IMG/VR virus record: IMGVR_UViG_3300011114_000309
Coordinates: 1-58,426 of that record
Length of the DNA: 58,426 nucleotides
Direction: 5' to 3' (one strand)
Origin: a virus
Shown: positions 15,801 through 30,051 of the stretch, piece after piece
Numbering within the stretch: the first letter of the stretch is position 1
How the letters are laid out: each line of letters starts with the position of its first letter
Made by a program: the position numbers and the translations under genes
Notes under the pieces: model-generated
Databases searched by the model: none
Seen by the model: only the letters and a program-made list of their open reading frames with translations
What the model was told of the DNA's origin: nothing

Positions 15801-15808
15801 GGTATAGT
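15779..15808 (+). promoter_or_regulatory. Possible promoter of the structured-RNA region
   Basis: TTGCAA (15779-15784) and TATAGT (15803-15808) with an 18-base spacer; start expected near 15815. The -35 lies in the terminator loop, so the assignment is tentative. Confidence 0.4.
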
Positions 15809-15811
15809 CAT

Positions 15812-17405: not shown

Positions 17406-17653
17406 GGTTTCTCCTTCCATGCTGCTTCAAACCCTTTAAGCCAAGCCTTCTCCCAGGCGATACACCACAGGTCATAAGACCCATCAAGTGGAAACTTGAA
17501 ATCTTCCTTGCCTTTCATCATGGCTTTAACATCTTTGCGCTTGATGAATGCCTCCCAAGCTTTGTCTCTGTCAGGGTTAACAAGGGGTACGTCGTCAAAC
17601 AGTCCTTTCTTACTGCCTTTACTTTTCTGGTGCATGTTGTGATCGCCACTCAT
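17402..17653 (-). CDS. Hypothetical protein
   Basis: 83 residues from the ATG at 17653 (MSGDHNMHQKSKGSKKGLFD); AAGGGGA stands upstream and the start overlaps the previous stop. The C-terminal DLWCIAWEKAWLKGFEAAW segment resembles a motif of phage accessory proteins (W...A...GF..AW). The longer start would run through the previous gene. Function unknown. Confidence 0.65.
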   Translation of the reverse strand: MSGDHNMHQKSKGSKKGLFDDVPLVNPDRDKAWEAFIKRKDVKAMMKGKEDFKFPLDGSYDLWCIAWEKAWLKGFEAAWKEKP

Positions 17654-17886: not shown

Positions 17887-18161
17887 TTATTTCCCCTTGC
17901 TCGTATGGCGCCTTCGCTGTAGTCGGGACGAACCCACTCGCTTTTTGCCACGGCGATGCAGTCGTTCGAATCCAGCATGTAATCGCCTTCGGTGACGCAG
18001 TAATCGTCTTCCTCTTTGATCGCCTTGCAGATGCGATCAAGCTCGGCGGCAGCAACAAGGGCAGCGAAGCGTTCGAGCTGCCCTTCCCAGCAGGTCCAAC
18101 CAAGCCCGTGCTTGGCGATGCCAGCCTTCCGCGCCAGCTTAATAATTTCCTCGTGGGTCAT
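17883..18161 (-). CDS. Tandem paralogue A, LERFAALVAAAE...AIRARGNK family
   Basis: 92 residues from the ATG at 18161 (MTHEEIIKLARKAGIAKHGL). Shares with its two upstream neighbours an N-terminal EEIIxxAxxxG helix, the core QLERFAALVAAAELDRICKAI and the C-terminal GAIRARGNK. Its middle (DDYCVTEGDYMLDSNDCIAV) is unique. Starts in an ATGA overlap. This family is widespread in phages of Burkholderiales; no function is established. Confidence 0.75.
   Translation of the reverse strand: MTHEEIIKLARKAGIAKHGLGWTCWEGQLERFAALVAAAELDRICKAIKEEDDYCVTEGDYMLDSNDCIAVAKSEWVRPDYSEGAIRARGNK
17890..17903 (-). repeat. 14-bp gene-junction repeat (copy 2 of 4)
   Basis: - strand CGAGCAAGGGGAAA at the end of paralogue A; ribosome site for the gene starting at 17886. 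Confidence 0.8.
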
Positions 18162-18421
18162 GTGTTTCCCCTTGCTCGTATAGCTTTCTTGCAATCCTCG
18201 GCATCAGGTTTGTTTCTGTAAGCCTCGTCCTCGTCTTCAAATTCTTGATTGCACCAGTCATGAAACATCTGGTCACACAACCTTGCACATGACTCGCGTT
18301 CATGCGCGGCAACAAGGGCAGCGAAACGTTCAAGGTCTTCAACGTGTGCCGTTGTGACAAAGTAGGAGAAATGCGACATGCCCGACTCCAGCGCCATGCG
18401 GATTATTTCTTCTCTGTTCAT
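18158..18421 (-). CDS. Tandem paralogue B, LERFAALVAAHE...AIRARGNT family
   Basis: 87 residues from the ATG at 18421 (MNREEIIRMALESGMSHFSY), with DLERFAALVAAHERESCARLC and the end CKKAIRARGNT. Cys-rich compared with paralogue A (four Cys). ATGA-coupled at both ends. Probably arose by tandem duplication with A and C; function unknown. Confidence 0.75.
   Translation of the reverse strand: MNREEIIRMALESGMSHFSYFVTTAHVEDLERFAALVAAHERESCARLCDQMFHDWCNQEFEDEDEAYRNKPDAEDCKKAIRARGNT
18165..18178 (-). repeat. 14-bp gene-junction repeat (copy 3 of 4)
   Basis: - strand CGAGCAAGGGGAAA at the end of paralogue B; ribosome site of paralogue A. Confidence 0.8.
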
Positions 18422-18654
18422 TTGTTTCCCCTTGCTCGTATGGCGGCGGCGCAGTCTTTTCCATGCTTGTACCACTCAGGTCCACCATTAAATACATTCA
18501 ATGCCGGATGCACCCCAAGCCCCTCACACACCTTCGCACACGCCTCACACTCGGCAGCAGCAATGATGGTGGCGAACTCTGCGAGTGACTCTGCGGTAAA
18601 AGCATAAATGCCGTACTCGTTCCTCGCCATGCGGATGATGTCTTCTCTATCCAT
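18418..18654 (-). CDS. Tandem paralogue C, AAAECEACAKVCEG...AIRARGNK family
   Basis: 78 residues: MDREDIIRMARNEYGIYAFT, ESLAEFATIIAAAECEACAKVC, then KDCAAAIRARGNK. Carries the same N-terminal and C-terminal motifs as A and B around a different middle. Overlaps the upstream gene by 8 bases and the downstream start by 4. Function unknown. Confidence 0.75.
   Translation of the reverse strand: MDREDIIRMARNEYGIYAFTAESLAEFATIIAAAECEACAKVCEGLGVHPALNVFNGGPEWYKHGKDCAAAIRARGNK
18425..18438 (-). repeat. 14-bp gene-junction repeat (copy 4 of 4)
   Basis: - strand CGAGCAAGGGGAAA at the end of paralogue C; ribosome site of paralogue B. Confidence 0.8.
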
Positions 18655-19102
18655 GATTCTTCTCCTTCAAGGCTTGCTCAATGGCTTTTGCAAAGGCAAG
18701 CACACCATAATTCTTACCACCATCGTAGAGATTTGTATCTGCCAGCTCAAACACAGCATCATCCGTCAGTGAAACCCATTCACGCTTTGGGATTACTTTT
18801 TCATGGTACGTCTGATCGTTCATTACTGCCATAGCAAGTGACACGCAGGTTTGGCATGGTGCGGTGTAGAGAGGTGTCCATCGCTCAGGATGACGGCCAA
18901 TATCTGCTGGTATGTGCGTGATGACATTATTCGTAATAAAGTTGTGCATCCACGCCACCGGCTCTTGCTCTGTCTCTAATGCTTCGTGCAACCGGCGCAG
19001 TTCGACGGCTGATTCCCTGCCCGTGCTATTGCTTATTCGTCCTTGCACAAACTCAGCGTCCAGCGCATCAGCCAGCCGCAGGGCTTTGGGTTGTGTGCTC
19101 AT
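18647..19102 (-). CDS. EPVAW...PLYTAP accessory protein (paralogue 1)
   Basis: 151 residues. N-terminus ALRLADALDAEF...SAVELRRLHEALE is a classic Burkholderiales phage accessory start; then EQEPVAWMHN, WTPLYTAP, KREWVSLTDDAVFELAD and a terminal AFAKAIEQALKEKNHG helix. Shares the EPVAW/PLYTA/REWV-LT/KEKN order with the next upstream gene and part with the one after it. Function unknown; coupled by a 4-base overlap. Confidence 0.7.
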   Translation of the reverse strand: MSTQPKALRLADALDAEFVQGRISNSTGRESAVELRRLHEALETEQEPVAWMHNFITNNVITHIPADIGRHPERWTPLYTAPCQTCVSLAMAVMNDQTYHEKVIPKREWVSLTDDAVFELADTNLYDGGKNYGVLAFAKAIEQALKEKNHG

Positions 19103-19521
19103 GCGTTCTTCTCCCGCAGCTTGGCTTCGATGTATCGGGCAAACCTCACACCGTCCTCATTCAAGAAAAGTGCTTCCATGTCCTCCTCCGTCAGCCCAAC
19201 CCATTCACGCTTTGGTGATGCGGTGTAGAGGGGTATGTCATCTGGATTGGGGCCGATCAGGTTGCCTTCTTCGTCAAATTTTGATGATTGATACCACCAA
19301 AGTTCGCCTTTGCCCCCATCGGTAATCCACGCCACCGGCTCATGGTCAGTTTTCACCATTTCATCGACACGTTTTTGCGATGTGTCGTCGGCATCGACAA
19401 GTGCTTGGCGCAGGATGGCGATGGCTTCAGCGTAGTAATTTTCATCGCCCGTTTCCATCAACATCTGTGCGCTTGCATCCTCCAGCACCTCTATCGCTTC
19501 TTCAATATCTTCCCTGCTCAT
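19099..19521 (-). CDS. EPVAW...PLYTAS accessory protein (paralogue 2)
   Basis: 140 residues. A helical N-terminus (MSREDIEEAIEVLEDASAQM...AIAILRQALVDADD) then HEPVAWITDGG, IPLYTASPKREWVGLTEEDME and a YIEAKLREKNA tail. The C-terminal half is paralogous to the 18647-19102 product; the N-terminal half instead shares DNA with the gene at 17650, so the protein looks mosaic. Function unknown. Confidence 0.7.
   Translation of the reverse strand: MSREDIEEAIEVLEDASAQMLMETGDENYYAEAIAILRQALVDADDTSQKRVDEMVKTDHEPVAWITDGGKGELWWYQSSKFDEEGNLIGPNPDDIPLYTASPKREWVGLTEEDMEALFLNEDGVRFARYIEAKLREKNA
19392..19413 (-). repeat. 22-bp in-frame repeat shared by two accessory genes (copy 2)
   Basis: Identical to 17754-17775; codes LRQALVD in both genes. 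Confidence 0.75.
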
Positions 19522-19745
19522 GTGTTTTTCCTTTTGATTGCTGCCTCTAGTGCTCTAGCAACATCAAGCCAACCGCCACCTTCAAGAACGTCATCAATTG
19601 CATCAAATACTTCTTTATCTGTCAGCGCAACCCATTGCTTGGCTGGTTTGCTTGAAATACAAGTGACTGTATAGGCTCTGCCACACTGACAACCCCAAGC
19701 TACAGGCCCGTCTGCGGATGACCTTGCGTTTTTGTTTTCACTCAT
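19518..19745 (-). CDS. Short EPVAW-type accessory protein (paralogue 3)
   Basis: 75 residues from ATG 19745 (MSENKNARSSADG), two bases after the upstream stop. Contains GPVAWGCQCGRAYTVTC, KQWVALTDKEVFDAIDD and a VARALEAAIKRKNT helix: a shortened form of the two downstream paralogues with an added CQC...C cysteine cluster. Function unknown. Confidence 0.65.
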   Translation of the reverse strand: MSENKNARSSADGPVAWGCQCGRAYTVTCISSKPAKQWVALTDKEVFDAIDDVLEGGGWLDVARALEAAIKRKNT

Positions 19746-19747
19746 AT

Positions 19748-19891
19748 TCACCACCACTTTTGAGGTTCAAGAAATAAAGCAGCACAGACTGCTGCCATCG
19801 CAAACCACCCACCTGCTGCCATTGCCATGGATATACCAAGGCCAAGCAACGCAAACATGCGGAACCACATATCAAATTCGCTTAACTTCAT
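19748..19891 (-). CDS. 47-residue membrane microprotein
   Basis: MKLSEFDMWFRMFALLGLGI... ending ALFLEPQKWW. Residues about 10-40 are almost wholly hydrophobic, giving one long or two short membrane segments. Start overlaps the upstream stop as ATGA (19888-19891) and follows AGGGAGAA. The coupling and clean start make it credible. Confidence 0.6.
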   Translation of the reverse strand: MKLSEFDMWFRMFALLGLGISMAMAAGGWFAMAAVCAALFLEPQKWW

Positions 19892-20199
19892 TTCTCCCTC
19901 GCTTTCAGCATGGCGTCTGCCATTGCATATGATTGCTCGGCAAGATCTTCAAATCCCCAATCTTCAAATTCTTCCCAAACCTCAAACATTTGTTGCAGAG
20001 CCTTGGCTGCAAAGTAATCACGAAGTGGCGTGTCGTTCTGAGGTTGGCAGCAATGTCCGCACCGAGGGCATTCAAATTGCTGTGACGCTTTCCTCAATCG
20101 ACTTACATGACCTTTGTTATAGCCAGTCTGTTGCGCGATATCTTTGATCGTAAGTGAAGGATCTTTGACCAACTCACGAACCTTTGTGTAACGGTTCAT
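19888..20199 (-). CDS. HTH protein with CxxC cluster and DYFAAKAL module
   Basis: 103 residues. A helix-turn-helix (SLTIKDIAQQTGYNKGHVSRLRKA) is followed by a metal-binding-like CPRCGHCC at about 44-51 and then LRDYFAAKALQQMFEVWEE...YAMADAMLKAREK. The last part is the same module as the gene at 11654-11860. Probably a small DNA-binding regulator; ATGA-coupled to its neighbours. Confidence 0.65.
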   Translation of the reverse strand: MNRYTKVRELVKDPSLTIKDIAQQTGYNKGHVSRLRKASQQFECPRCGHCCQPQNDTPLRDYFAAKALQQMFEVWEEFEDWGFEDLAEQSYAMADAMLKAREK

Positions 20200-20516
20200 G
20201 TCCTTGCTCCTAAACCAAACGGGTTATGCCAATTCATTGGCACTTTTGGTTTACGTGCTTGATAGGTTTTATGTTCTTCTTTGACTTCGTAGTAATTCAC
20301 GATGGTCTTTTTCCAAGGGATGGTTTGCTCTTTAAACCCTTTTGATTTCACAACCATATCGTCTGCTGCCATTTCATCTAACAGTTGACCGGCTCGCTTC
20401 GCTGTGAAGTCAAACTTCTCGCCAATGGTCCAAGCATTCACAGGATTCTTTAACTTCTTTAGATAGTCAAAGATCATTTGCTTTCTTTTTTCTTTATTCA
20501 TCTTTACTTGTTTCAT
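20196..20516 (-). CDS. Winged-helix-like protein
   Basis: 106 residues from ATG 20516, which has AAGGAG upstream. RKQMIFDYLKKLKNPVNAWTIGEKFDFTAKRAGQLLDEM fits a winged helix-turn-helix used to read DNA; a basic tail (KTYQARKPKVPMNWHNPFG) follows. Overlaps the upstream gene by 23 bases. Likely a regulator; no closer family recognised. Confidence 0.55.
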   Translation of the reverse strand: MKQVKMNKEKRKQMIFDYLKKLKNPVNAWTIGEKFDFTAKRAGQLLDEMAADDMVVKSKGFKEQTIPWKKTIVNYYEVKEEHKTYQARKPKVPMNWHNPFGLGART

Positions 20517-20730
20517 TAGCTTTCTCCTTTGCAAGCTTAGAAGCGTCAGCCATTGATAACCCTTCTGGAATATCTTCCAACTCAGAAGTCTTGACCCAAC
20601 GTCCTACATAAGTAAGACCGCCAACGTCTTCAGTATGAACAGCAAGAATGCCAAACCGTTTTGACATGACAAACTTCATTGATCCACCAGGTATGGCAAA
20701 CAGTACATCGTTTAATTTGTTTTTGTTCAT
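20494..20730 (-). CDS. Hypothetical protein
   Basis: 78 residues; predominantly beta at the front (VLFAIPGGSMKFVMSKRFGILAVHTEDVG) with a charged helical tail. Starts in a 4-base overlap. No family recognised. Confidence 0.6.
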   Translation of the reverse strand: MNKNKLNDVLFAIPGGSMKFVMSKRFGILAVHTEDVGGLTYVGRWVKTSELEDIPEGLSMADASKLAKEKANETSKDE

Positions 20731-21014
20731 GACCGTCCCTCGTAATCAATCTCTACCGTCTCAGCAAAACCAAAGACCCTGCCGTTATCTTCTGCATACT
20801 TAATATCTATATTCCTAGCCACCTCATACAGGGTTTTATATCCCTGAGTTTTAAAGATGTGGTCTTCCAACATCTGTACGGCGGGCAGGTATTTAGAACT
20901 CTGACGATCAGCTTCTTGTTTCCATTCTTGAATTTGTTTTTCTTGCTGTTGAATTAATTTGTCCTGTTGTTCTATTAACAGTTCGTACGCCTGAATTAGT
21001 AAATGATTTTTCAT
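20727..21014 (-). CDS. Coiled-coil hypothetical protein
   Basis: 95 residues; heptad-rich N-terminus (LLIEQQDKLIQQQEKQIQEWKQ) predicts a coiled coil, then a mixed domain. Its start (AGGAGATACAAC before the ATG at 21014) lies 107 bases inside the reading frame of the upstream gene. Confidence 0.65.
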   Translation of the reverse strand: MKNHLLIQAYELLIEQQDKLIQQQEKQIQEWKQEADRQSSKYLPAVQMLEDHIFKTQGYKTLYEVARNIDIKYAEDNGRVFGFAETVEIDYEGRS

Positions 21015-21348
21015 GTTGTATCTCCTGATTCAATATTGATTGTTCCCGTTCCATCTTTTTTCTAAGCTTCTGTTTGAATTTGTATCTCCTTGCTATTTCA
21101 GTTCTAGTTAGCTTAAATCGTGGCTTGTCTTCACCAACCCCAAGGGTGTAGATCTTTGTTGCGTCTGCACCTCTTTTATTCTTCACCCAACCCGAGATAT
21201 GCACCGCACCAACATCATGTAAAGCGCGAAGATAAGACTGTGCGGTCACAATATGCAGGCCTGTTTCTGCACAAATGTTTTGAGCTGTACACCCATCAAA
21301 CAACATCTTGATCATCCTGGCATACAGCCGTTCGTTCATCTTGATCAT
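20908..21348 (-). CDS. Winged-helix phage protein with long overlapping tail
   Basis: 146 residues. The front (MNERLYARMIKMLFDGCTAQ, NICAETGLHIVTAQSYLRALHDVGAVHI) is a MarR-like winged helix found in many phage proteins; GWVKNKRGADATKIYTLG is its usual wing. Related proteins as I remember them end soon after the basic RRYKFKQKLRKK segment. Here the frame runs on 107 bases into the next gene, giving a low-complexity Asn/Thr/Arg tail that may be a lost stop. Confidence 0.65.
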   Translation of the reverse strand: MIKMNERLYARMIKMLFDGCTAQNICAETGLHIVTAQSYLRALHDVGAVHISGWVKNKRGADATKIYTLGVGEDKPRFKLTRTEIARRYKFKQKLRKKMEREQSILNQEIQHEKSFTNSGVRTVNRTTGQINSTARKTNSRMETRS

Positions 21349-21611
21349 GCTTGGTCATTACCCCACAGCTTCCACTCTTCACCGTCTTTGACAATCTTCT
21401 TTGTATCTTCGATTGCAGCGTCATAACCGGCGCGGAATGCTCTGCCATAAGAGGATCTGGAGAACATGAACTTGTTGGCCTTGATGTCAATCTTCAGTTC
21501 TTCGTACCACTTGGCCCATGCGTCGTAGGCGGGATGAGATTCTGCTGGGCAGGCCTTCCCTTTGGTGCATTCACCGTGACATGGAGGACAGCTAGAAGGG
21601 TTCATTGTCAC
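21345..21611 (-). CDS. Small protein with N-terminal CPPC zinc-knuckle-like motif
   Basis: 88 residues. CPPCHGECTKGKACPAE near the start is a five-cysteine pattern shared with the gene at 21701-21937. The rest (SSYGRAFRAGYDAAIED) resembles the GRAFRAGYDAA helix of phage accessory proteins. Possibly zinc binding; ATGA overlap with the next gene. Function unknown. Confidence 0.65.
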   Translation of the reverse strand: MTMNPSSCPPCHGECTKGKACPAESHPAYDAWAKWYEELKIDIKANKFMFSRSSYGRAFRAGYDAAIEDTKKIVKDGEEWKLWGNDQA

Positions 21612-21765
21612 CAGCCTTTGTGCGTACTAACAAGGTAGCCATGCGTGACTCAGCGATAGCCTCTAGTCCACACTCAATGGCCTCTTCAAAGTTCTTGTCC
21701 TCACACAGGTTGTGCATCTTTTTCAGTGCGTTGATTGCTCTCATGATGTGTATCGCGTGATCCAT
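21592..21765 (-). CDS. 57-residue helical protein
   Basis: MDHAIHIMRAINALKKMHNL, then EDKNFEEAIECGLEAIAESRM, ending RTKAGDNEPF. Two or three helices, reminiscent of one TPR-like pair. Starts behind GAGGAACT, overlaps the upstream gene's tail by 65 bases and the downstream start by 20. Codon pattern and conserved feel support expression; function unknown. Confidence 0.55.
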   Translation of the reverse strand: MDHAIHIMRAINALKKMHNLCEDKNFEEAIECGLEAIAESRMATLLVRTKAGDNEPF

Positions 21766-21937
21766 AGTTCCTCACTTTAAATTCAATGGCTCGGGCAAAA
21801 GCGTATAAGAAGTTGTCTGCGGTAAGTGAATTGGGTATGTCGTCCATACAGGCTCGGATGTCTGCATCACTGATGCGAGCAGGACATAGACGACCTTGGT
21901 TACAAGTTTGATTACACGGCGGACAGGTCTTCATCAT
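21701..21937 (-). CDS. Second CPPC-type small protein
   Basis: 78 residues: MMKTCPPCNQTCNQGRLCPA then DADIRACMDDIPNSLTADNF and LYAFARAIEFKVRN. N-terminal cysteine pattern matches the 21345-21611 product. The last ~20 residues overlap the next gene and are low in character. Probably zinc binding; function unknown. Confidence 0.6.
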   Translation of the reverse strand: MMKTCPPCNQTCNQGRLCPARISDADIRACMDDIPNSLTADNFLYAFARAIEFKVRNYGSRDTHHESNQRTEKDAQPV

Positions 21938-22085
21938 GTCTTCTCAGAAATGACGGTTGCTGAGGGAAGTGGCACATCAGTTCAGACACTTCTGTCAGTG
22001 CATCCCATTCCTCTAAAACAATCATCAAGTGCATGTAATCTACAAGGATCTGCTTCTGCACATCCTGGTTCGTATAGTCTTTCAT
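21912..22085 (-). CDS. 57-residue protein, first gene of leftward accessory island
   Basis: MKDYTNQDVQKQILVDYMHL, MIVLEEWDALTEVSELMCHF, ending HDEDLSAV. Two amphipathic helices. AGGAGATGAA directly precedes the ATG at 22085 and the promoter at 22115-22143 lies upstream, so it is probably the earliest-expressed gene of the island. Function unknown. Confidence 0.65.
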   Translation of the reverse strand: MKDYTNQDVQKQILVDYMHLMIVLEEWDALTEVSELMCHFPQQPSFLRRHDEDLSAV

Positions 22086-22087
22086 TT

Positions 22088-22104
22088 CATCTCCTGTCTG
22101 TTAG
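22088..22104 (-). promoter_or_regulatory. Shared early leader / ribosome-binding site (copy 2)
   Basis: - strand CTAACAGACAGGAGATG, one base different from 15346-15362. Confidence 0.7.
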
Positions 22105-22114
22105 GTTAGACTCT

Positions 22115-22143
22115 AATATACCAGTTGACTTTGGTAAACGCAA
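22115..22143 (-). promoter_or_regulatory. Promoter for leftward accessory island
   Basis: - strand TTGCGT (22143-22138) and TATATT (22120-22115), spacer 17. Same -10 as the replication operon promoter at 15373, weaker -35. Confidence 0.6.
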
Positions 22144-22153
22144 GTGGTAATCT
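22125..22153 (+). promoter_or_regulatory. Promoter for ParB/helicase/primase operon
   Basis: TTGACT (22125-22130) and TAATCT (22148-22153), spacer 17, overlapping the divergent - strand promoter. Mutual interference is possible. Confidence 0.55.
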
Positions 22154-22170
22154 GACTACTCTTTCATACT

Positions 22171-22180
22171 TTTATGGAGT
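22171..22180 (+). promoter_or_regulatory. Half site of the 26-bp palindrome, at a ribosome-binding site
   Basis: TTTATGGAGT matches the right half of the palindromes at 15410 and 29281 and lies four bases before the ATG at 22185. No matching left half is present. Confidence 0.5.
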
Positions 22181-22184
22181 CGAA

Positions 22185-22331
22185 ATGGATCAGGCAAGGA
22201 AGATTTTTGAGACGATGTTGACTGCTTCGGGCAGGTCAGCACCGGTGTGGGACGGGAGGAAGTACACAACCAAGAACGTGCAAACCTACTGGCGCTGGTT
22301 CTGGCTGGGTTATTCGATGAGTGGCAAATGA
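22185..22331 (+). CDS. 48-residue hypothetical protein, first gene of rightward early operon
   Basis: MDQARKIFETMLTASGRSAP... ending WFWLGYSMSGK. The ATG at 22185 follows TATGGAGT; the longer upstream reading would cross the promoter. Trp/Tyr-rich C-terminus. Its TGA overlaps the next ATG (ATGA). Function unknown. Confidence 0.6.
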   Translation: MDQARKIFETMLTASGRSAPVWDGRKYTTKNVQTYWRWFWLGYSMSGK

Positions 22332-23083
22332 CAGCTATCAATATCGACATCATCAATATCGGAGCAGGGACTCAGTCTCGAGCCGAGATCAACGAGCAGG
22401 TAGTCAGCGAGTACGCCGAAGCGATGGACCACGGGTCTATCTTCCCACCTGTCCAGTTGTATTCAGACGGCGTTAATTATTATTTGGTTGATGGGTTCCA
22501 CCGGTATCACGCGCATCGTCGGCTTAAGAAGAAGGCGATCAACGCTGATGTTCTTCAGGGGACTCTGCGGGATGCGATCCTTCATTCGCTCGGGGCCAAT
22601 GCTTTGCATGGACTTCGGAGGACGAACGAGGACAAGCGCAAGGCTGTCATCACGATGTTGGAAGACATTGAATGGCAGGACTGGGCTGACAACGAGATAG
22701 CTAGGAACTGCAAGGTGTCAGCTCCTCTGGTAGCCAAGCTACGCAAGGAGATGGGTGCGGCTAGGACGACGAGAAAGTTCAACACCAAGACCGGCAAGAC
22801 ATCTGAGATCAAGGTTGAACCTCCGAAGGAGGAAGAGTTCAATCCAGAGAAGGACGCTGTTGACGATCTACTGGCAGAGAATGAATCGTTGAAGGATCAG
22901 CTAGCCGTAGCGAAGATGGGGACTACACCGGATGCATCGATGGCGCAGGAGACCATTGAATCCTTACGGGAGGAAATTAGACTCTTGAAGATTGAGAATG
23001 AAGCACTTCGTATATCTCGAGACACGTTTCAAAACGAGAACGCACAGTTGAAGAAACAAGTAGCCATGTTGCAGAAGAAATGA
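22328..23083 (+). CDS. ParB-like nuclease-domain protein with HTH and coiled coil
   Basis: 251 residues from ATG 22328 (ATGA overlap); the earlier ATG at 22247 lies inside the previous gene. The ParB/Srx-type domain shows SRAEINEQVVSEYAEAM, PPVQLYSDG and YYLVDGFHRYHAHRRL (G-H-R signature). A helix-turn-helix follows (WADNEIARNCKVSAPLVAKLRKEM), and residues about 180-251 form a Leu-rich coiled coil (ESLREEIRLLKIENEALRIS). Phage ParB-like proteins act as regulators or CTP/ATP-dependent nucleases. It heads the helicase-primase operon. Confidence 0.8.
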   Translation: MTAINIDIINIGAGTQSRAEINEQVVSEYAEAMDHGSIFPPVQLYSDGVNYYLVDGFHRYHAHRRLKKKAINADVLQGTLRDAILHSLGANALHGLRRTNEDKRKAVITMLEDIEWQDWADNEIARNCKVSAPLVAKLRKEMGAARTTRKFNTKTGKTSEIKVEPPKEEEFNPEKDAVDDLLAENESLKDQLAVAKMGTTPDASMAQETIESLREEIRLLKIENEALRISRDTFQNENAQLKKQVAMLQKK

Positions 23084-23313
23084 AGATCAACGCACGTAAA
23101 GCCATGACAATGGCTATTCAATCCTTGGAACTTTGGAAGAGGACACATGCCTTAGATTGGGAGCAGCATGATGAAGACGCACTTCAAGCATTGCGAGAGA
23201 GTTTGCATTTATGTGAAACGCCGATTCCGGAGGATCGTATGCGACTCCTTGCATTGGATTACAAAGGTTGGCGTTTAGTCAGGGCAACAGAGAAGGAACA
23301 CGGTATCTACTAA
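23080..23313 (+). CDS. Hypothetical protein
   Basis: 77 residues, overlapping the ParB-like stop by 4 bases. Helical throughout (ARKAMTMAIQSLELWKRTHA, then ALQALRESLHLCE). No family recognised. A 36-base gap with GGAG precedes the helicase. Confidence 0.6.
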   Translation: MKINARKAMTMAIQSLELWKRTHALDWEQHDEDALQALRESLHLCETPIPEDRMRLLALDYKGWRLVRATEKEHGIY

Positions 23314-23349
23314 CCCACGCCGAGGGGTGTCTCGGCAGGAGAAACGAAC

Positions 23350-24822
23350 ATGGAGTTGAAACTTCGACCTTATCAACTGGAAGCTTTGGAGCAACTGCGA
23401 CAGGGTTTTGCAGCAGGGAAACGAAAACAAGTTTTAGTTAGTCCCACCGGATCTGGAAAGACTGAGATGGCGATAGCTTTGCTGAACGCCACAAAACAAA
23501 AGGGCAACAAAGCAGCGATGATCCTTGACCGGATCATTCTCTGCGACCAAACCAGTAAACGACTCGATAGGTACAACATCGACCACGGTGTGTTGCAGGC
23601 CAAACACTGGCGTTGGAGGCCGTACGAAAACATCCAAGTTTGTTCGGCACAGACGTTGGAGAAGCGAGGATCGTTTCCTGGTCTTAACCTTTTGATCGTT
23701 GATGAGGCGCATACAACACGCCAACAGACGATGGACTTTATCAAGAACAATCCAGATGTCAGGGTGATTGGTTTGACTGCAACCCCTTTCACAAAAGGTC
23801 TTGGTTCGGTGTATGAGCATGTTGTATCCACGGTCACGACCAAGGAACTGGTCAATCAGGGAGTGCTTGTACCGCTGAAGGTCTTTGTGGCGAAAGAGAT
23901 CGACATGACCGGCGCAAAGAAGGTGGCCGGTGAGTGGTCATCAGGCGAAGCCGAGAAGCGTGGGATGGTCATCACTGGAGATATTGTTGCTGAATGGATT
24001 AAGAAGACTCATGAAATATTTGGTAAGCCAGAGAAGACTATTGTCTTTTGTTCTGGTGTAGCGCATGGAGCAGACCTTGCTCGGAAGTTCGCAGAGCAGG
24101 GATACAACTTCGTAGCCGTTTCGTATCTGGACGATGACAAGTTCAAACAAGAAGTGATTACGGAGTTCAGCAAACCGGACACCGAGATACATGGACTGAT
24201 CGCAACGGACATCTTGACCAAGGGTTTTGATGTACCGGATGTGAAGATCGGCGTAAGCGCCAGGCCATTTAGTAAATCATTATCCTCACACATCCAACAG
24301 ATGGGCCGTGTGATGCGTGGAGCCACGGGTAAGGATTTTGCCTTGTGGCTTGATCATTCGGGCAACTACGTTCGTTTTAGGGACGAATGGGAGGAAGTAT
24401 TCGAGGCCGGTGTTCAGGAGTTGGACGACGGCAAGGAGAAGGCTAAGAAAGAACCAAGCCAGAAGGAAAAAGAAGCCAGTAAATGTCCTGTCTGCTCGGC
24501 GTTATGGCCTAAAGGTTCGGATACGTGTGCGAACTGTGGTCATGTGAGGGAGAGGAAGAACAAGGTAGCTTCGGTGGCAGGAGAGCTGACCGAGTTGGGT
24601 GCGATGTCTAGGGAGAACAAGCAGGACTTCTGGAGTCAACTTCGGTGGAAGGTGATGTATGACGGTTGGCGGGAGGGTCGAGCAGCACACACCTACAAGG
24701 ATAAGTTTGGAGTATGGCCTCGAGGCCTGGACGATAAGACCGTTAAACAACCGACTTCTGAGACAGAACGGTTTATAAAACAACGGCTAAGACATTTCTT
24801 ATACAAGAGCAGGAAGATCTAA
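23350..24822 (+). CDS. SF2 DEAH-type DNA helicase with C-terminal zinc ribbon
   Basis: 490 residues. Q-like start LRPYQLEALEQLRQGF, motif I SPTGSGKTE (31-39), DEAH (118-121), motif III TATP (143-146), motif V DILTKGFDVPDV and motif VI HIQQMGRVMRG. A CPVCSALWP...CANCGH zinc ribbon lies near residues 377-397. This is a RecG/UvsW/RadD-like superfamily 2 arrangement used by many phages as the replicative or branch-migrating helicase. Its last base is the first base of the primase ATG, so the two are coupled. Confidence 0.93.
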   Translation: MELKLRPYQLEALEQLRQGFAAGKRKQVLVSPTGSGKTEMAIALLNATKQKGNKAAMILDRIILCDQTSKRLDRYNIDHGVLQAKHWRWRPYENIQVCSAQTLEKRGSFPGLNLLIVDEAHTTRQQTMDFIKNNPDVRVIGLTATPFTKGLGSVYEHVVSTVTTKELVNQGVLVPLKVFVAKEIDMTGAKKVAGEWSSGEAEKRGMVITGDIVAEWIKKTHEIFGKPEKTIVFCSGVAHGADLARKFAEQGYNFVAVSYLDDDKFKQEVITEFSKPDTEIHGLIATDILTKGFDVPDVKIGVSARPFSKSLSSHIQQMGRVMRGATGKDFALWLDHSGNYVRFRDEWEEVFEAGVQELDDGKEKAKKEPSQKEKEASKCPVCSALWPKGSDTCANCGHVRERKNKVASVAGELTELGAMSRENKQDFWSQLRWKVMYDGWREGRAAHTYKDKFGVWPRGLDDKTVKQPTSETERFIKQRLRHFLYKSRKI

Positions 24823-25625
24823 TGGACTTCATATCGTTTTGCAGGGGACACGGCATCATCATCGACCAGACACCACCAATCGGGGTGTGGAAAAGGTATC
24901 GAACTGAGGATCACCCAAACAAGAAGAACGGCGCAGTGAAATGGATGGGGACGTACGGATTCGTACAGAACCATGCGTTGGATACTGCTGTATCGGTGTG
25001 GCAGTCTGATAAACCGGACGACCTGAAATTTAAGAAGTTCATTCAGGCTGCGACCGATAAGACTCAAGAGACGCAGGAACGTGCGGCAAAGAAGGCCGGA
25101 TGGATTCTGAATCAGTGTGAACTGTTTACCCATGAGTACTTTCTACGGAAAGGTTTTCCGGATGAACGTGGGAATGTGTGGTTCAAGGATAATGAAAAGA
25201 TCCTGGTCATTCCGATGCGGATAGGGACTCGGTTGGTCGGATGCCAGATGATCAGTGAGACCGGAGATAAGAAGTTTTTGTTCGGCCAAAAGACCAGTGG
25301 GGCTGAATTTGTGTTTGATAACAAAGGCCCAAACTTTTGGTGCGAGGGATACGCCACGGCGTTAAGCCTTCGGATGATCTTAAAGTCGATGAAGCGTAGG
25401 TATACGATTCACGTTTGTTTCTCGGCACATAACATGCAGAAACTTGCCAAGGACGGGTATGTGATCGCGGATAACGACGCAAGCGAGACGGGTGAGACGG
25501 TAGCGAAGCGAAGTGGCTTGCCTTATTTCATGCCACCGGACGTTGGCGATGACTTCAACGATTACCACAGGAAAGTCGGGATACTAAAAGCCGGACTCTC
25601 GCTAACAAAATCACTGCGTTTGTAA
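24822..25625 (+). CDS. Toprim-domain DNA primase
   Basis: 267 residues. CEGYATALSLR (E175) and VIADNDASETGE (D217, D219) are the Toprim catalytic motifs of phage/plasmid primases; a DUF927-like or zinc-finger front is absent, the N-terminal ~100 residues being a short accessory region. Starts within the helicase stop. Probably lays primers for phage replication. Converges on the - strand gene at 25611, overlapping 15 bases. Confidence 0.87.
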   Translation: MDFISFCRGHGIIIDQTPPIGVWKRYRTEDHPNKKNGAVKWMGTYGFVQNHALDTAVSVWQSDKPDDLKFKKFIQAATDKTQETQERAAKKAGWILNQCELFTHEYFLRKGFPDERGNVWFKDNEKILVIPMRIGTRLVGCQMISETGDKKFLFGQKTSGAEFVFDNKGPNFWCEGYATALSLRMILKSMKRRYTIHVCFSAHNMQKLAKDGYVIADNDASETGETVAKRSGLPYFMPPDVGDDFNDYHRKVGILKAGLSLTKSLRL

Positions 25626-25817
25626 AGCATAAAAGACCCCTTCAACTTTCATGTGGGAGGGGTTTTCCCGTTCGGTATGCTTCAGGAACATGAGCATTTC
25701 CATGCCAAGGGAATAGCTAGCTTCGCCTGGGCCATAGTGATCGGCACTGACTCGTACAAAGCCGGTTTCATCTTCCATCAAATAGATGGCGAACATCGTC
25801 TTATTTTTCATGGTCAT
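25611..25817 (-). CDS. Hypothetical protein
   Basis: 68 residues from ATG 25817 (MTMKNKTMFAIYLMEDETGF); a second in-frame ATG at 25811 has better spacing from AGGAC. Beta-rich with VRVSADHYGPGEASYSLGME. Follows the DpdA-like gene by four bases, so part of that operon. Function unknown. Confidence 0.6.
   Translation of the reverse strand: MTMKNKTMFAIYLMEDETGFVRVSADHYGPGEASYSLGMEMLMFLKHTERENPSHMKVEGVFYALQTQ
25636..25666 (+). terminator. Possible terminator of helicase-primase operon
   Basis: ACCCCT (25636-25641) pairs with AGGGGT (25658-25663) followed by TTT; it lies inside the opposite-strand gene and the loop is long, so weak. Confidence 0.3.
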
Positions 25818-25821
25818 CGTC

Positions 25822-26550
25822 CTAGATGAACAAAGGCTTTTGATATTGCATGGTATTGATGCGATCTTCAAACACTTTCGCTTCCCGCCAATCATTTCCG
25901 TTGCGGCGTTCGTACCGAGCGGCAAAAGACCATGCCATAGAGTCTGCTGTGTAGAGTAATTCACGCACCAATCCGGATGATAGGGCAGTAGTCTTTACAC
26001 CAAACCCGTGAAGACGTAGATCGGGACGTTCGGTTTTGATAGCAAGCAGTACTTGCTCGATAGATGCGATGTTGTTATTGCGTTTGCATACGGACCCCAC
26101 ACCGACCCACATGCCTTGCTTTAGGCGGTCTCCGTACATACGGATGTGATTAACGTAGTCTTGTGGGTCGTACCCTTGCAGGACCGGAATGATGTAAACA
26201 CCTCCAACGTCATGTTGAAGCAGCTCGTCGTAGCGTTCGATGGTCATGCGTTGATGTTCGGGTATGGTTTTCCCGGTCATCTTCAGGACAAATGCTTCGC
26301 ACATAAAATCCTGGGACACTGCGGCTAGTAGGTTGCCGCAGGTGGAGAATCGTTTGATGTGATGGGCATATTCAGACACGGGGAAACGGTATCCCCCATG
26401 TCTGACCACCTCGGTAAATGCACCTGAATCCATGATCCAGTCGTTGACTGGGAAATGGCTTTTGCGATTCCGTATGGTGTTTACGGAAATAAAAGCAGAC
26501 TCAAAGTGTTTCGAGTCTGCGGGGTGATGCAGTCCAGTGAAAAACCTCAT
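25822..26550 (-). CDS. dpdA: DpdA-like 7-deazaguanine DNA transglycosylase
   Basis: 242 residues. WIMDSGAFTEV (D41 in a DSGxF motif), IIPVLQGYDPQDYVNHI, MWVGVGSVCKR, RLHGFGVK and ADSMAWSF follow the TGT/DpdA order seen in phage proteins that swap guanine in DNA for a 7-deazaguanine. D41 corresponds to the base-recognition Asp of queuine tRNA-ribosyltransferases. No preQ0 synthesis genes (folE, queD, queE, queC) are seen in the window, so the precursor would come from the host. Substrate cannot be told from sequence. ATGA-coupled to the upstream microprotein. Confidence 0.8.
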   Translation of the reverse strand: MRFFTGLHHPADSKHFESAFISVNTIRNRKSHFPVNDWIMDSGAFTEVVRHGGYRFPVSEYAHHIKRFSTCGNLLAAVSQDFMCEAFVLKMTGKTIPEHQRMTIERYDELLQHDVGGVYIIPVLQGYDPQDYVNHIRMYGDRLKQGMWVGVGSVCKRNNNIASIEQVLLAIKTERPDLRLHGFGVKTTALSSGLVRELLYTADSMAWSFAARYERRNGNDWREAKVFEDRINTMQYQKPLFI

Positions 26551-26645
26551 TCAGAAAACCACCATTTCACCATCATCCAACCAAGTGCAACACCGGATAC
26601 AACCATCACCACAAGGTCTAAGACCAAATCAGTTAAACGTTTCAT
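26547..26645 (-). CDS. 32-residue membrane microprotein
   Basis: MKRLTDLVLDLVVMVVSGVA... ending VKWWFSE: a single transmembrane helix with a basic start. ATGA overlaps at both ends (26642-26645 and 26547-26550) tie it to its neighbours. Confidence 0.55.
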   Translation of the reverse strand: MKRLTDLVLDLVVMVVSGVALGWMMVKWWFSE

Positions 26646-26863
26646 GCCCAAGCCTCCAAAAATTCAGCGTCTGACTTTTGACCCTCGAGAATCTGAGTGT
26701 TCAGCCAATGGTCATAGATATCGACCAAGGGTTCGAGGTTTTGACCGTGACGGTCTACGAACTCCCAAACTTGGATGAACGCATAGAGAAAATCGCGTTG
26801 ATCTTGAGTGAGTCGGGATCCGTATTCAAAAAGCATCTCGTCGGCGGTTCTATTGGGCATCAT
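26642..26863 (-). CDS. Hypothetical protein
   Basis: 73 residues, acidic and aromatic (DQRDFLYAFIQVWEFVDRHG). Helical, no family recognised. Coupled by a 4-base overlap to the microprotein downstream. The N-terminal NRTADEM resembles the start NRTADKV of the next gene upstream, suggesting a shared short module. Confidence 0.6.
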   Translation of the reverse strand: MMPNRTADEMLFEYGSRLTQDQRDFLYAFIQVWEFVDRHGQNLEPLVDIYDHWLNTQILEGQKSDAEFLEAWA

Positions 26864-27014
26864 GTTGATTTTCCTTTTGGTCTATTAAATCGCCCACGGC
26901 TAACCAGTAGCGGTAACCGAGGCTTTCGGATGGAAACTTGCTTGCCATGTACATACAAAAGACATAAGCATGCTCTCCGTACATGGCAACTACTTTGTCG
27001 GCGGTCCGGTTCAT
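26850..27014 (-). CDS. 54-residue hypothetical protein
   Basis: MNRTADKVVAMYGEHAYVFC, MYMASKFPSES, ending KENQHDAQ. Start overlaps the upstream stop as ATGA; end overlaps the next start by 14 bases. Shares NRTAD with the following product. Function unknown. Confidence 0.55.
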   Translation of the reverse strand: MNRTADKVVAMYGEHAYVFCMYMASKFPSESLGYRYWLAVGDLIDQKENQHDAQ

Positions 27015-27139
27015 TTCAGGATGAAATCGTCGATAACGTAGGACCGAAGGCCCAACTTGCGCGCGGCTTGAAGGGCTAAAGCTTCGGTGGTAAAGACGCC
27101 GATGACATCGACGCCGGACATGAGTACGAAGACTTTCAT
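27011..27139 (-). CDS. 42-residue hypothetical protein
   Basis: MKVFVLMSGVDVIGVFTTEA then LALQAARKLGLRSYVIDDFILK: a compact strand-strand-helix-strand pattern. Begins one base after the GP88-like stop. Function unknown. Confidence 0.55.
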   Translation of the reverse strand: MKVFVLMSGVDVIGVFTTEALALQAARKLGLRSYVIDDFILK

Positions 27140-27140
27140 G

Positions 27141-27809
27141 CTAATGCTCGATAAAGGCTATCGCCTTAGTCGTGGACCAACAAAGGCCGCATGTCAGGCA
27201 TGAGGAGGTTTTCCCGGTTTGTTCCGGGCATGTAATGCCTTCGCCCATGACGTTAGCCGACATGGATCCACCCTTGTCGGACCATCGGATCCACGCGCGA
27301 TCATTTTGCAGATTGTCGGCTATGGCATCGGCGATCGGACCGTCGGTTCTATGGGTGTAACCGAAGACATGCAACGAAGGGTATGCCCGAAGGGCATTAG
27401 CCCAAAAATCTACATAATCCGTACTGTAAAAGTCTCCTAAGACATGAAGACGAACTACAAACCCTTGCGGATGTTTCCGGGCTAAATAGTCCAGTTCGTC
27501 ATTAAGTCTCATTTCCAATAATTCGGGTTCGGACGAACTAATCCGGTGAGCGAACCCCATATTGTTCCCGAAGCATCGGTCCCATTGCTGACATGATCGG
27601 GAACAGGTAGCCCGTTCTTCAAGAGTAAGGGTGTACATGGGCATACCGGACCATTTACCCTTTGTGACTACGTTCGAACCCGCACCAAGCTTGGCATTTC
27701 CCGAAGCCGGTTTAAGTAGACGCGAAGCATAGTCGGCTAAGGGTTTAACCGTCTTCGGGTGAATTGTCACGGCATGCTCGAGTGCCGGGTGATTTGCGCG
27801 TAGTCTCAT
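27141..27809 (-). CDS. GP88-like cysteine-rich phage protein
   Basis: 222 residues from the ATG at 27809, which has GGAGATAAC upstream (an earlier in-frame ATG at 27833 is less well placed). YTLTLEERATCSRSCQQW then RCFGNNMGFAHR, FVVRLHVLGDFYS and HVFGYTHR match the phage 'gene product 88' family as I remember it. C-terminal CPEQ...SCLTCGLCW adds more cysteines, suggesting an Fe-S or zinc site. Function unproved. It sits in the same operon as the DpdA-like gene, so a link to DNA modification is possible. Confidence 0.75.
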   Translation of the reverse strand: MRLRANHPALEHAVTIHPKTVKPLADYASRLLKPASGNAKLGAGSNVVTKGKWSGMPMYTLTLEERATCSRSCQQWDRCFGNNMGFAHRISSSEPELLEMRLNDELDYLARKHPQGFVVRLHVLGDFYSTDYVDFWANALRAYPSLHVFGYTHRTDGPIADAIADNLQNDRAWIRWSDKGGSMSANVMGEGITCPEQTGKTSSCLTCGLCWSTTKAIAFIEH

Positions 27810-27834
27810 TGTTATCTCCGTTAGTAGGTCCACA

Positions 27835-27856
27835 AAAACCCTCCGCGAAGGGTTTT
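27835..27856 (-). terminator. Terminator between 27864 and 27809 genes
   Basis: AAAACCCT / AGGGTTTT eight-bp stem with a six-base loop; T-rich on both strands, so possibly bidirectional. Confidence 0.65.
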
Positions 27857-27863
27857 AATTGAC

Positions 27864-28160
27864 CTACTTGAGAGCAAGCTTCAAGGCCTTGATCCAGTAC
27901 TTTTCTTTTCTCTCCGGTCCTACGAAGTGCAAGTGTTCGGTCCTGTACTCTCCGGTCCTATAGTCTTGTTCGGGTTCGCTCGATACCCAAGTATCCGGAC
28001 CGATAACAGAACTTGAAGGGTGAGGAAAGAAACGTAACTGCCTGACTAAATCACGAAACGAAAAAGGCTCGAATTCGAACTCGAAGCCTGACTCCTCCAC
28101 TTCGCCATGCTCGGCGGACTCTTCGGTGATTACTTCGTAGGTTTTACTGATTAAAAGCAT
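27864..28160 (-). CDS. Conserved phage protein, ESGFEFE family
   Basis: 98 residues with ESGFEFEFEPFSFRDLVRQL, DTWVSSEPEQDYRTGE and HLHFVGPERKEKYWIKAL. This pattern is common in uncharacterised proteins of betaproteobacterial and actinobacterial phages. Acidic. Function unknown. Confidence 0.7.
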   Translation of the reverse strand: MLLISKTYEVITEESAEHGEVEESGFEFEFEPFSFRDLVRQLRFFPHPSSSVIGPDTWVSSEPEQDYRTGEYRTEHLHFVGPERKEKYWIKALKLALK

Positions 28161-28211
28161 TTTTTACACTCCAAAAAATAGGGTTTGAACCAGCTCCAAA
28201 TCTATAGCGGT

Positions 28212-28376
28212 TTACTCGTCTTCGACATCGATAATGTCAATTTGGTAGTCGGCGGAATTCAATTCCTCGTCGATGTCAGTACATCCATTGAGGATCAAAT
28301 CGCGCAACTCCTCCTCGGATTTGGCGCTGATTGCCCGGGTAACGGAAACGGTTACGGTTACGGTGTAGGTTTTCAT
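28212..28376 (-). CDS. 54-residue hypothetical protein
   Basis: Starts at ATG 28376 after GGAGCG: MKTYTVTVTVSVTRAISAKS, EEELRDLIL, ending DIIDVEDE. Beta-rich front, acidic tail, similar in layout to small phage proteins that modulate a partner enzyme. Promoter-proximal gene of its operon. Confidence 0.6.
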   Translation of the reverse strand: MKTYTVTVTVSVTRAISAKSEEELRDLILNGCTDIDEELNSADYQIDIIDVEDE

Positions 28377-28408
28377 GTATCGCTCCGGTGTTTGGTGTAC
28401 GAACTTCC

Positions 28409-28438
28409 ATCTTAGTACACTTAATCGCACCATGTCAA
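28409..28438 (-). promoter_or_regulatory. Promoter of DpdA/GP88 operon
   Basis: - strand TTGACA (28438-28433) and TAAGAT (28414-28409), spacer 18. Confidence 0.6.
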
Positions 28439-28458
28439 GCGATTATGCTGAGGGTTTG

Positions 28459-28487
28459 TTGTTTTCCTCTTTTGTTCCCATTAGAAT
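28459..28487 (+). promoter_or_regulatory. Possible promoter of the late operon
   Basis: TTGTTT (28459-28464) and TAGAAT (28482-28487), spacer 17, upstream of the small terminase. A GCCC-GAA-GGGC hairpin (28506-28516) follows before the ATG. Confidence 0.4.
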
Positions 28488-28522
28488 CGCGCGATGATCA
28501 ATAGCCCGAAGGGCAATAGCCT

Positions 28523-29203
28523 ATGAAGCTTTCACGTAAACAAGCAAAGGAAACGCTAGAAACAATCCCAAGTGAGATATTGCTAGGGAAGTCCGTTTCC
28601 AAAGGGTTAACCCATAAGCAAAGGGAATTTGCACGAAGGGTAGCAATGGGACAAACAAAGGCTAGTGCATACAGACAAGCGTATAAGGAAAACGCAAGCA
28701 AACGAACTCTAGCGTGCAAACCCTACGAACTAATGCGCGATGAGAGGATACAGAGAGAGATCCAAGCGTATGAACTGGCAATTGAGTCGGCGAAATATCG
28801 AACCCCTATTGCCCTTCGCGAACTTGTAATCCAATCCTTAGTTCAAACACTGATCGATCCCCAGGCTAAACACGCACAAAGGGTCGCGGCGGCGAAGGTA
28901 CTCGGAACCGTCGCAGAGGTATCCGCCTTCGTTGATCGCAAGGAGATTACTCACGTTTCATCGAGCGAACACGCTAGAGACCAAATCATGGACATGCTCT
29001 CGGACATGCTGAAGGCGAACGCCATCGACGTGGACCCCACCTCATTGATTCAGGAACTGGGGGGAACCCACCCCTCCCCCACCCCCCTTGACGCTGAATC
29101 GGAGTCCCCTCCGCATGTACATACTATTCCCCACGAATCAGCCACCTCTGAATCAGATACCCCCACCCCCTTTCAAAATTCCGACCAAGATAGTGATAAG
29201 TAA
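28523..29203 (+). CDS. terS: Terminase small subunit
   Basis: 226 residues. The segment LTHKQREFARRVAMGQTKAS followed by AYRQAYKE is the DNA-binding helix-turn-helix start of small terminases; RTPIALRELVIQSLVQTLID and a helical oligomerisation region follow. The C-terminal ~45 residues are disordered Pro/Ser/His. It would recognise phage DNA and feed the large subunit encoded three genes on. An insert of two other genes between terS and terL is unusual. Confidence 0.85.
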   Translation: MKLSRKQAKETLETIPSEILLGKSVSKGLTHKQREFARRVAMGQTKASAYRQAYKENASKRTLACKPYELMRDERIQREIQAYELAIESAKYRTPIALRELVIQSLVQTLIDPQAKHAQRVAAAKVLGTVAEVSAFVDRKEITHVSSSEHARDQIMDMLSDMLKANAIDVDPTSLIQELGGTHPSPTPLDAESESPPHVHTIPHESATSESDTPTPFQNSDQDSDK

Positions 29204-29280
29204 AATAGCGAAAACCCCCCATGTATGATTTGGTACCATCTTGTATGGGGATATATACCAACTTACAGCTATGCATACCA

Positions 29281-29306
29281 AAACTCCATAAACGTTTATG
29301 GAGTTT
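29281..29306. promoter_or_regulatory. 26-bp perfect palindrome, candidate operator (site 2)
   Basis: Half site AAACTCCATAAAC followed directly by its exact reverse complement, 27 bases before the LexA-like ATG. Differs from site 1 (15410-15435) only in the central two bases. A place where the LexA-like protein could repress its own gene. Confidence 0.75.
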
Positions 29307-29332
29307 GCGGTATAGGTTATAGAATATGTGAA

Positions 29333-29614
29333 ATGGTCAGTGTACCAAAGTTCACCAAGAATTCGACCTTTGAGGAGTGTATTGGAGTCATGTCGCCGGT
29401 ACAGAGGGATATGTTTATTTTGATTGATGAGTATTGGAAGAAGTTCCAATATAGCCCTACGTTGAGGGAGCTGGCGTACTTACGGGGGAAGATGGGGATA
29501 GGGAATACGAAACGGATTGTGGACCAGTTAGTGAGGATTGGCGCGGTTAAGAAGGTAGGTAAGAGAGGACGTACGATTCGGCCTATATATATCAACTTTA
29601 GGAATTTGGATTGA
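29333..29614 (+). CDS. LexA-like winged-helix DNA-binding protein without protease domain
   Basis: 93 residues from ATG 29333; the earlier ATG at 29225 would force the palindrome into coding sequence. Residues about 20-90 fit the LexA DNA-binding domain: MSPVQRDMFILIDEYWKKFQ, YSPTLRELAYLRGKMGIGN, TKRIVDQLVRIGAVKKVGKRG and RTIRPIYI. The S24 self-cleaving domain of LexA is absent, so it should not respond to RecA in the LexA way. It sits right after the palindrome at 29281 and is the best candidate to bind both palindromes. Confidence 0.75.
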   Translation: MVSVPKFTKNSTFEECIGVMSPVQRDMFILIDEYWKKFQYSPTLRELAYLRGKMGIGNTKRIVDQLVRIGAVKKVGKRGRTIRPIYINFRNLD

Positions 29615-30051
29615 GAAGGGTTGATTTAACGGAAGTGGAGAAGAAGGTAGTCATGATGGTGGCTAGGGAGAAGTATGAGTACAGTAGGGACCATCATGTA
29701 GATATGAAGCGGATGGAAGATGGGTTACAGGCAGATATAGATGGGATGATTGGAGAGGTTTGTTTTGGGAAGATGTTTAACTACTTTGTGAATTTAAGTG
29801 CAAGGAAGGCTGATGCGGACTTTTATACAAAAGATGGGAAGTCTATTGATGTGAAGAGTACGAGGTACAAGACGGGGAGATTAGTGGCGACGATTAATAA
29901 GAAGAGGAGTCCGTGTGATTTATATGTCTTGATGGTGATTGACGACGAAGGTGGTTGGTATAAAGGTTATGTGAGTAAAGAAGAATTATTTAGAGACGAG
30001 AACATTAAGGACTTAGGCCACGGGCCTACGTATGTCTATGAAATTAGATGA
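29611..30051 (+). CDS. PD-(D/E)XK-like nuclease upstream of terL
   Basis: 146 residues reading from TTG 29611 (overlaps the previous stop); an ATG at 29653 is an alternative. ADIDGMIGEVCFGKMFN followed by ADADFYTKDGKSIDVKSTR gives a D...DxK active site as in small resolvase-like or restriction-like endonucleases; CDLYVLMVIDD follows. Genes of this type often lie beside phage terminases. Probable role is DNA branch resolution before packaging. Confidence 0.65.
   Translation: MRRVDLTEVEKKVVMMVAREKYEYSRDHHVDMKRMEDGLQADIDGMIGEVCFGKMFNYFVNLSARKADADFYTKDGKSIDVKSTRYKTGRLVATINKKRSPCDLYVLMVIDDEGGWYKGYVSKEELFRDENIKDLGHGPTYVYEIR

Follow-up and report, generated by a model that had tools for sequence, protein, structure and literature searches.

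ParB-fold proteins are known chiefly for their function in DNA segregation, while KorB represents the well-studied exception, in which the fold serves gene silencing. KorB, a sliding clamp that moves away from its operator, is locked at promoters by its DNA-bound partner KorA (PMC11790492). Here, we analyze two palindromes in the genome of a phage, IMG/VR record IMGVR_UViG_3300011114_000309 (positions 1 to 58,426; this whole stretch of 58,426 nucleotides is subsequently designated the window), which are likely to be read by a protein of the same fold. From comparison with related phages we conclude, with a probability of roughly 0.78, that both palindromes are operators of a phage-encoded ParB/KorB-like regulator and that a winged-helix gene and an early nuclease gene are its targets. 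The argument turns on the following features:

29281–29306, no strand: site 2, a predicted operator 5' of the LexA-like winged-helix gene; relatives show compensatory changes
15410–15435, no strand: site 1, TA-centred, flanked by the divergent early promoter and the small nuclease gene
22328–23083, plus strand: the proposed ParB/KorB-like reader, with a ParB/sulfiredoxin domain, a helix-turn-helix (recognition helix SAPLVAKLRK) and a C-terminal coiled coil
29333–29614, plus strand: LexA-type winged-helix protein of 93 amino acids, the presumed target of site 2 and, judged by covariation, not the reader
15438–15725, plus strand: small PD-(D/E)XK nuclease-like gene, whose relatives match VRR_NUC/Hjc weakly; the presumed target of site 1

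Both sites are perfect 26-bp palindromes, site 2 reading AAACTCCATAAACGTTTATGGAGTTT and site 1 reading AAACTCCATAAATATTTATGGAGTTT. As had been stated in a preliminary description of this DNA, they have their arms in common (AAACTCCATAAA-NN-TTTATGGAGTTT) and differ solely in the two central bases, which are CG in site 2 and TA in site 1. No further match was detectable in the window when up to 3 mismatches were allowed, and 100 dinucleotide shuffles of the window yielded 0 matches. The exact palindrome was present in 14 IMG/VR stretches, each time at one of these two positions and invariably with CG in the centre of site 2 and TA in the centre of site 1. The window itself represents a complete assembled phage genome, whose two ends (1–208 and 58219–58426) are identical 208-bp direct repeats; these end repeats may represent terminal redundancy or circular assembly.

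The sites were followed through a family of phages of about 58–65 kb sharing the winged-helix and nuclease genes, using 14 whole genomes, a 42-kb record of another phage and large pieces of others. The family is widely represented in IMG/VR, with at least 551 loci confirmed. 5' of winged-helix orthologues in phages at a slightly greater distance from the window the palindrome varies symmetrically, the variants being AAACTCTATAAATATTTATAGAGTTT (L030, L032), AAACTCCAGTAACGTTACTGGAGTTT (L031, L033, L035, L036) and TCATAGTATAAATATTTATACTATGA (G005). In genome G001, in which both loci are present on one contig, both sites are altered alike (CCAGTAACGTTACTGG at site 2 and CCAGTAACGTTTCTGG at site 1). 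Such symmetric and coordinated changes are what a protein-binding site of two-fold symmetry shows, and they agree with the earlier proposal that one dimeric regulator would link both loci.

A palindrome 5' of the winged-helix gene was found in nearly every lineage (about 30 lineages), with a different sequence in each, examples being GGGGTAACTAGTTACCCC, AAACGAAACGTTTCGTTT, GATGGAAACGTTTCCATC, AATGGCAACGTTGCCATT, CAACATAAACGTTTATGTTG and GAACCAA-6-TTGGTTC. The palindrome of a given lineage is repeated 2 to 19 times per complete genome, mostly at module boundaries, and is nearly absent from the genomes of other lineages, i.e. each lineage possesses its own dispersed set of sites of the stoperator type. 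Indeed, when over-represented palindromes were searched for without regard to genes, the top dispersed element in several genomes was the one located 5' of the winged-helix gene, with 19 core copies in G011, 10 in G013, 9 in G012, 5 in G009 and 3 each in G002 and G029. Across lineages the same locations recur. Copies precede the winged-helix gene and the gene for the terminase small subunit (TerS), adjoin the exonuclease and nuclease genes in the divergent early region, follow the long tail gene at the convergent junction, and occur at the end of the ParB-like gene, ahead of the helicase gene; some copies are intragenic, chiefly in G011, G013 and G020. The number of sites often exceeds that of the small two-site switch envisaged in the preliminary description, up to the 19 core copies of G011.

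Some of these copies are located at convergent gene ends, and the compensatory changes preserve hairpin potential, as would be expected of intrinsic terminators or other RNA hairpins; mobile repeats could be considered as well. However, neither site was called as a terminator, all copies within a genome share one sequence, those in coding regions included, and this sequence tracks a protein helix (see below), which renders the explanation highly improbable. A pattern search across 84,980 bacterial and archaeal species genomes returned 9 scattered matches in unrelated contexts, arguing against operators of a host regulator that were borrowed by the phage. Under this extremely unlikely scenario the coordinated change at both sites could follow a host switch, but the operators track a phage protein.

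Individual relatives differ in how the operator is arranged. In L353 (19947–20287) the operator is present eight times between the terminase small subunit and winged-helix genes, with a regular spacing that alternates between 40 and 60 bp. In L037 the winged-helix ATG lies inside the palindrome (near 3001), so that the operator is shifted relative to the gene. The DNA of L038–L044 retains a perfect DnaA-box-like TTATCCACA in 7 of 7 loci, immediately ahead of the conserved portion of the winged-helix protein and within its likely coding N-terminus. In most relatives, the intergenic region between the terminase small subunit and winged-helix genes contains a conserved G-run followed by TATATA (e.g. 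GGGGTATATA), 5' of the operator; this element may belong to a promoter or terminator.

Which protein reads the sites? The preliminary description had favoured the product of the gene adjoining site 2, and it correctly placed this site close upstream of a gene encoding a LexA-type winged helix: 26 nt lie between the end of site 2 and the ATG (29333) of the open reading frame of 93 amino acids. The protein matches Pfam LexA_DNA_bind (PF01726) with E=0.0023 and 18.1 bits, which is under the curated cut-off of 23.7, NCBIfam lexA with E=0.0022 and the LexA chain 3k2z with E=0.024. The S24 protease/dimerisation domain is not present at its C-terminus, and the annotated phage collection gave no match for it. 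A longer open reading frame (29225–29614), which would place the palindrome inside the coding region, was ruled out as the gene, as relatives have stop codons there.

If this LexA-type protein were the reader, autoregulating its gene from site 2 and also controlling site 1, its recognition helix should change along with the operators. This helix (GIGNTKRIVDQL) does not vary among the window, G001 and G006, whereas their operators do. The pair G001/G006 is most telling: the entire winged-helix proteins are 1 residue apart, while the operators (CAGTAACGTTACTG vs TATAAATATTTATA) are unlike at several positions in both arms. In contrast, the recognition helix of the ParB-like protein is SAPLVAK in the window, G005 and G006, all of which have ATAAA-type operators (ATAAA-NN-TTTAT in the window and G006), and SHPFVSK in G001, whose operator is GTAACGTTAC. 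The ParB-like proteins of G006 and G001 differ in 28 of 272 residues, 4 of which are within the 10-residue helix segment. As the G006 protein is otherwise close to that of G001, helix and operator have changed together.

Quantitative comparison pointed to the same protein. Across 26 distinct pairs, the best correlate of operator distance was the ParB-like recognition helix (r=0.52), and a partial correlation persisted when the rest of the protein and the winged-helix protein were controlled for (partial r=0.35, p=0.0002). When 3016 eight-residue segments from 10 conserved proteins were scanned without bias, the ParB-like helix-turn-helix ranked first. At the level of whole proteins, the correlation with the operator was 0.45 for the ParB-like protein, 0.19 for TerS, 0.14 for the winged-helix protein and 0.06 for TerL; the ParB-like protein thus outranks the other three although the operator adjoins the genes of the latter. 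The recognition-helix/operator covariation that the preliminary description proposed to look for was found for the protein encoded at 22328–23083 instead. Relatives keep the winged-helix gene next to entirely different palindromes or, in a few cases, to none detectable, which the preliminary description had named as counter-evidence to its model. On the strength of the G001/G006 pair and the correlation scan the LexA-like protein was rejected as the likely reader. Its candidacy draws on the site lying directly 5' of its gene in most lineages, on its LexA-like recognition helix and on a small residual correlation (see below), and mycobacteriophage repressors with identical helix-turn-helix motifs can differ in their operators through the C-terminal region (PMC6550527). 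On balance, we regard it as improbable. The helix-turn-helix-like product of a small early gene (19888–20199) was discarded as well, since its ortholog cluster lacks a common helix-turn-helix.

The first data set suggested two rules relating helix to operator. According to rule 1, F at helix position 4 goes along with an AA-CG-TT centre (8 of 8 vs 1 of 15, p=2e-5); according to rule 2, His at helix position 2 goes along with a TGG half-site (8 of 10 vs 0 of 13, p=9e-5). The rules were derived after inspection of these data and fixed in writing before new loci were fetched. When applied to new helix/operator pairs, which were scored by hand from the palindromes, rule 1 was followed in 8 of 11 vs 0 of 6 cases (p=0.007) and rule 2 in 10 of 15 vs 0 of 4 (p=0.03), these p-values coming from Fisher tests that ignore phylogeny. 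Of the three misses of rule 1, two were narrow, the centre containing a single additional base (AACGGTT, AACCGTT); the third was ambiguous and was scored as a failure.

Besides the neglect of phylogeny in these tests, several observations weigh against assigning the palindromes to the ParB-like protein. The recognition helix of the winged-helix protein retains a small residual correlation with the operators (partial r=0.18, p=0.007). The helicase and toprim-like neighbours of the ParB-like gene also correlate, so that the helix is not statistically separable from its module; such correlation is expected from linkage to the ParB-like gene. G012/G028 and G024/G025 have near-identical ParB-like helices and different operator centres, which would mean that only the operator arms are read. 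In G017 and G031, which have ParB-like helices such as SAEFVRQIK, and in a few other relatives, no clear palindrome was found 5' of the winged-helix gene. Finally, an operator 5' of the ParB-like protein's own gene was detected in 0 of 32 lineages, i.e. classical autoregulation is missing. In this context, the half-site TTTATGGAGT at 22171–22180, the only isolated half-site in the genome (0.12 matches expected by chance in all), was considered as a means of autoregulation and rejected, as an operator was present at this place in none of the lineages; the half-site probably coincides with a GGAG ribosome-binding site by chance.

The predicted architecture of the ParB-like protein, whose gene lies ~7 kb from the palindromes and may alternatively start at GTG 22247, is in line with a role as their reader. 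Pfam ParB_N was found in 3 of 8 family members (best E 4.8e-05), and profile comparison matched sulfiredoxin and ParB chains. As the single-sequence AlphaFold model was poor (pLDDT, the predicted local distance difference test score, of 53), the alignment-based model was used (pLDDT 83). Its nearest solved folds in Foldseek were Noc, ParB, KorB and Spo0J with E about 1e-07 to 1e-05, the top entries being 7nfu, 7bnk and 6sdk, with KorB structures 8qa8 and 8qa9 also among the matches; the protein thus has the ParB/sulfiredoxin N-terminal domain of ParB/KorB CTPase-fold proteins. A helix-turn-helix is predicted at residues 121–142 and a long C-terminal coiled coil, with weak leucine-zipper matches, at residues 173–250. 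The family has invariant D-G-x-H-R-Y and G-x-x-R residues, the GERR motif of ParB being replaced; these residues would fit a nucleotide site. The annotated phage collection contained only distant relatives of the protein.

A ParB fold together with dispersed palindromes, some of them within genes, could also indicate a centromere (parS-like) of a partition system in a plasmid-like phage. We consider this very unlikely: ParA (PF13614) was found in 0 of 15 genomes while being present in 14 of 14 control genomes, and the sites are located at module boundaries and adjoin start codons. Without ParA, partition-type lysogeny is unlikely. Integrase or resolvase genes (PF00589, PF00239) were not found in the 15 genomes either, in accord with the earlier remark that an integrase is not visible. 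By terminase, the nearest annotated phages are 023Pt_psg01, DSL-LC04 and the Pelagibacter phages HTVC027P/HTVC023P.

How the ParB-like regulator might act can be considered from the surroundings of the two sites, which comprise the following additional features:

15373–15401, minus strand: divergent sigma-70-type promoter, TTGACA-17-TATATT (11 of 12), which would drive the leftward gene 15083–15343
15083–15343, minus strand: gene of 86 amino acids with no function assigned, the first leftward gene past the divergent promoter
28523–29203, plus strand: terminase small subunit, bounding the intergenic region of site 2 on the left
29611–30051, plus strand: DUF5843 protein, on inspection a possible nuclease, whose gene overlaps the winged-helix gene at the end of the latter and is likely co-transcribed with it

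The end of site 1 is separated by 2 nt from the ATG (15438) of the nuclease-like gene, and GGAG in the right arm of the site is the Shine-Dalgarno sequence of this gene. The promoter is the best sigma-70 match within 15000–30000; it is oriented on the opposite strand (15401–15373) at a distance of 8 bp from site 1. An activator arrangement of class II was considered for this site and rejected, because the spacing between palindrome and -35 differs among relatives (8, 6 and 12 bp, by inspection), unlike the distance between site 1 and the nuclease ATG, which is nearly constant. We infer that the ParB-like protein dimerises, probably via its coiled coil, and binds the palindromes physically with its helix-turn-helix. 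The bound protein would most likely repress or road-block, rather than activate, transcription of the winged-helix and early nuclease genes, because site 1 covers the nuclease ribosome-binding region and abuts the divergent early promoter, and because site 2 is placed between the terminase small subunit and winged-helix genes. With sites dispersed at module boundaries, it could act in the divergent early region, between the terminase small subunit and winged-helix genes, where late and early genes converge and immediately past the ParB-like gene itself, the operator sequence of each lineage presumably being matched to its own recognition helix.

By analogy to KorA/KorB of RK2, the ParB-like protein might load at the palindromes and have the winged-helix protein as a partner, bound to a different DNA element that does not vary. 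The partner-like winged-helix gene is the most constant target of the sites, and the conservation of the DNA-binding helix in its product would fit a constant site; such a site was, however, not identified, and we consider this form of co-regulation possible but rather doubtful.

Other regions of the window contained further genes of interest. The gene at 25822–26550 (minus strand) is DpdA-like (PF23859, E=1.6e-35), which suggests 7-deazaguanine DNA modification, and 27141–27833 (minus strand) encodes a Gp88-family protein (PF17338, E=1.6e-06). Several small leftward early genes (17650–18455 and 18759–19646) have near-identical start regions, with AGCAAGGGGAAA ahead of the start codon, and share further duplicated stretches, representing a family of short paralogues.

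Taken together, a ParB-like protein without ParA bears the genomic signature of a phage-wide regulator, and a DNA-binding gene adjoining an operator need not encode its reader. The about 40 natural helix/operator pairs, close ones included, provide a data set for the DNA recognition code of the ParB fold and serve the question why a lytic phage family keeps altering its operators. As a tentative and more far-reaching idea, apparently virulent phages may encode a ParB-fold regulator working as a nucleotide-gated sliding clamp, which would load at lineage palindromes to silence or insulate modules; its diversifying specificity would give each phage a private regulatory code and possibly also block related phages in the same cell.

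The ParB fold, dispersed operators and diversifying repressor specificity are each of known kinds. Their combination in a ParA-less ParB-like regulator with a private palindromic operator set per lineage, in phages without detectable integrase, was not found in a literature search that covered open-licence full texts. With LexA the phage system would share the LexA-type DNA-binding domain predicted for the 93-residue protein (with a score below the Pfam cut-off), but this protein lacks the protease/dimerisation domain and does not covary with the palindromes. A textbook autoregulated repressor would have an operator before its own gene, unlike the ParB-like gene in the 32 lineages. Immunity repressors and stoperators of cluster A mycobacteriophages are similar in that one phage protein faces many dispersed sites with a lineage-matched consensus (PMC6550527, PMC9283540). 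Their stoperators, however, lack symmetry and are recognized by a repressor monomer, and the phages concerned are temperate (PMC6550527, PMC9283540), whereas the present family has palindromic sites, a ParB-like protein and no integrase found in 15 genomes. Chromosomal ParB/Spo0J and Noc with parS/NBS resemble the phage system in fold and in dispersed short palindromes, some of them intragenic; the phage system differs by the lack of detected ParA (0 of 15 genomes), by specificity that diverges between close relatives and by sites at regulatory junctions. By analogy, the closest functional model is KorB of RK2, with which the phage protein shares the predicted fold of ParB/sulfiredoxin N-domain and helix-turn-helix and would share palindromic operators away from the controlled genes and long-range control; KorB has a small DNA-binding partner gene (KorA), a KorA-like role of the winged-helix protein being possible but unsupported. 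Compared with KorB and its operator OB, the protein of the window is phage-borne, has a long C-terminal coiled coil and DGFHRY in place of the ParB GERR motif, and belongs to a family in which the operator sequence differs lineage by lineage.
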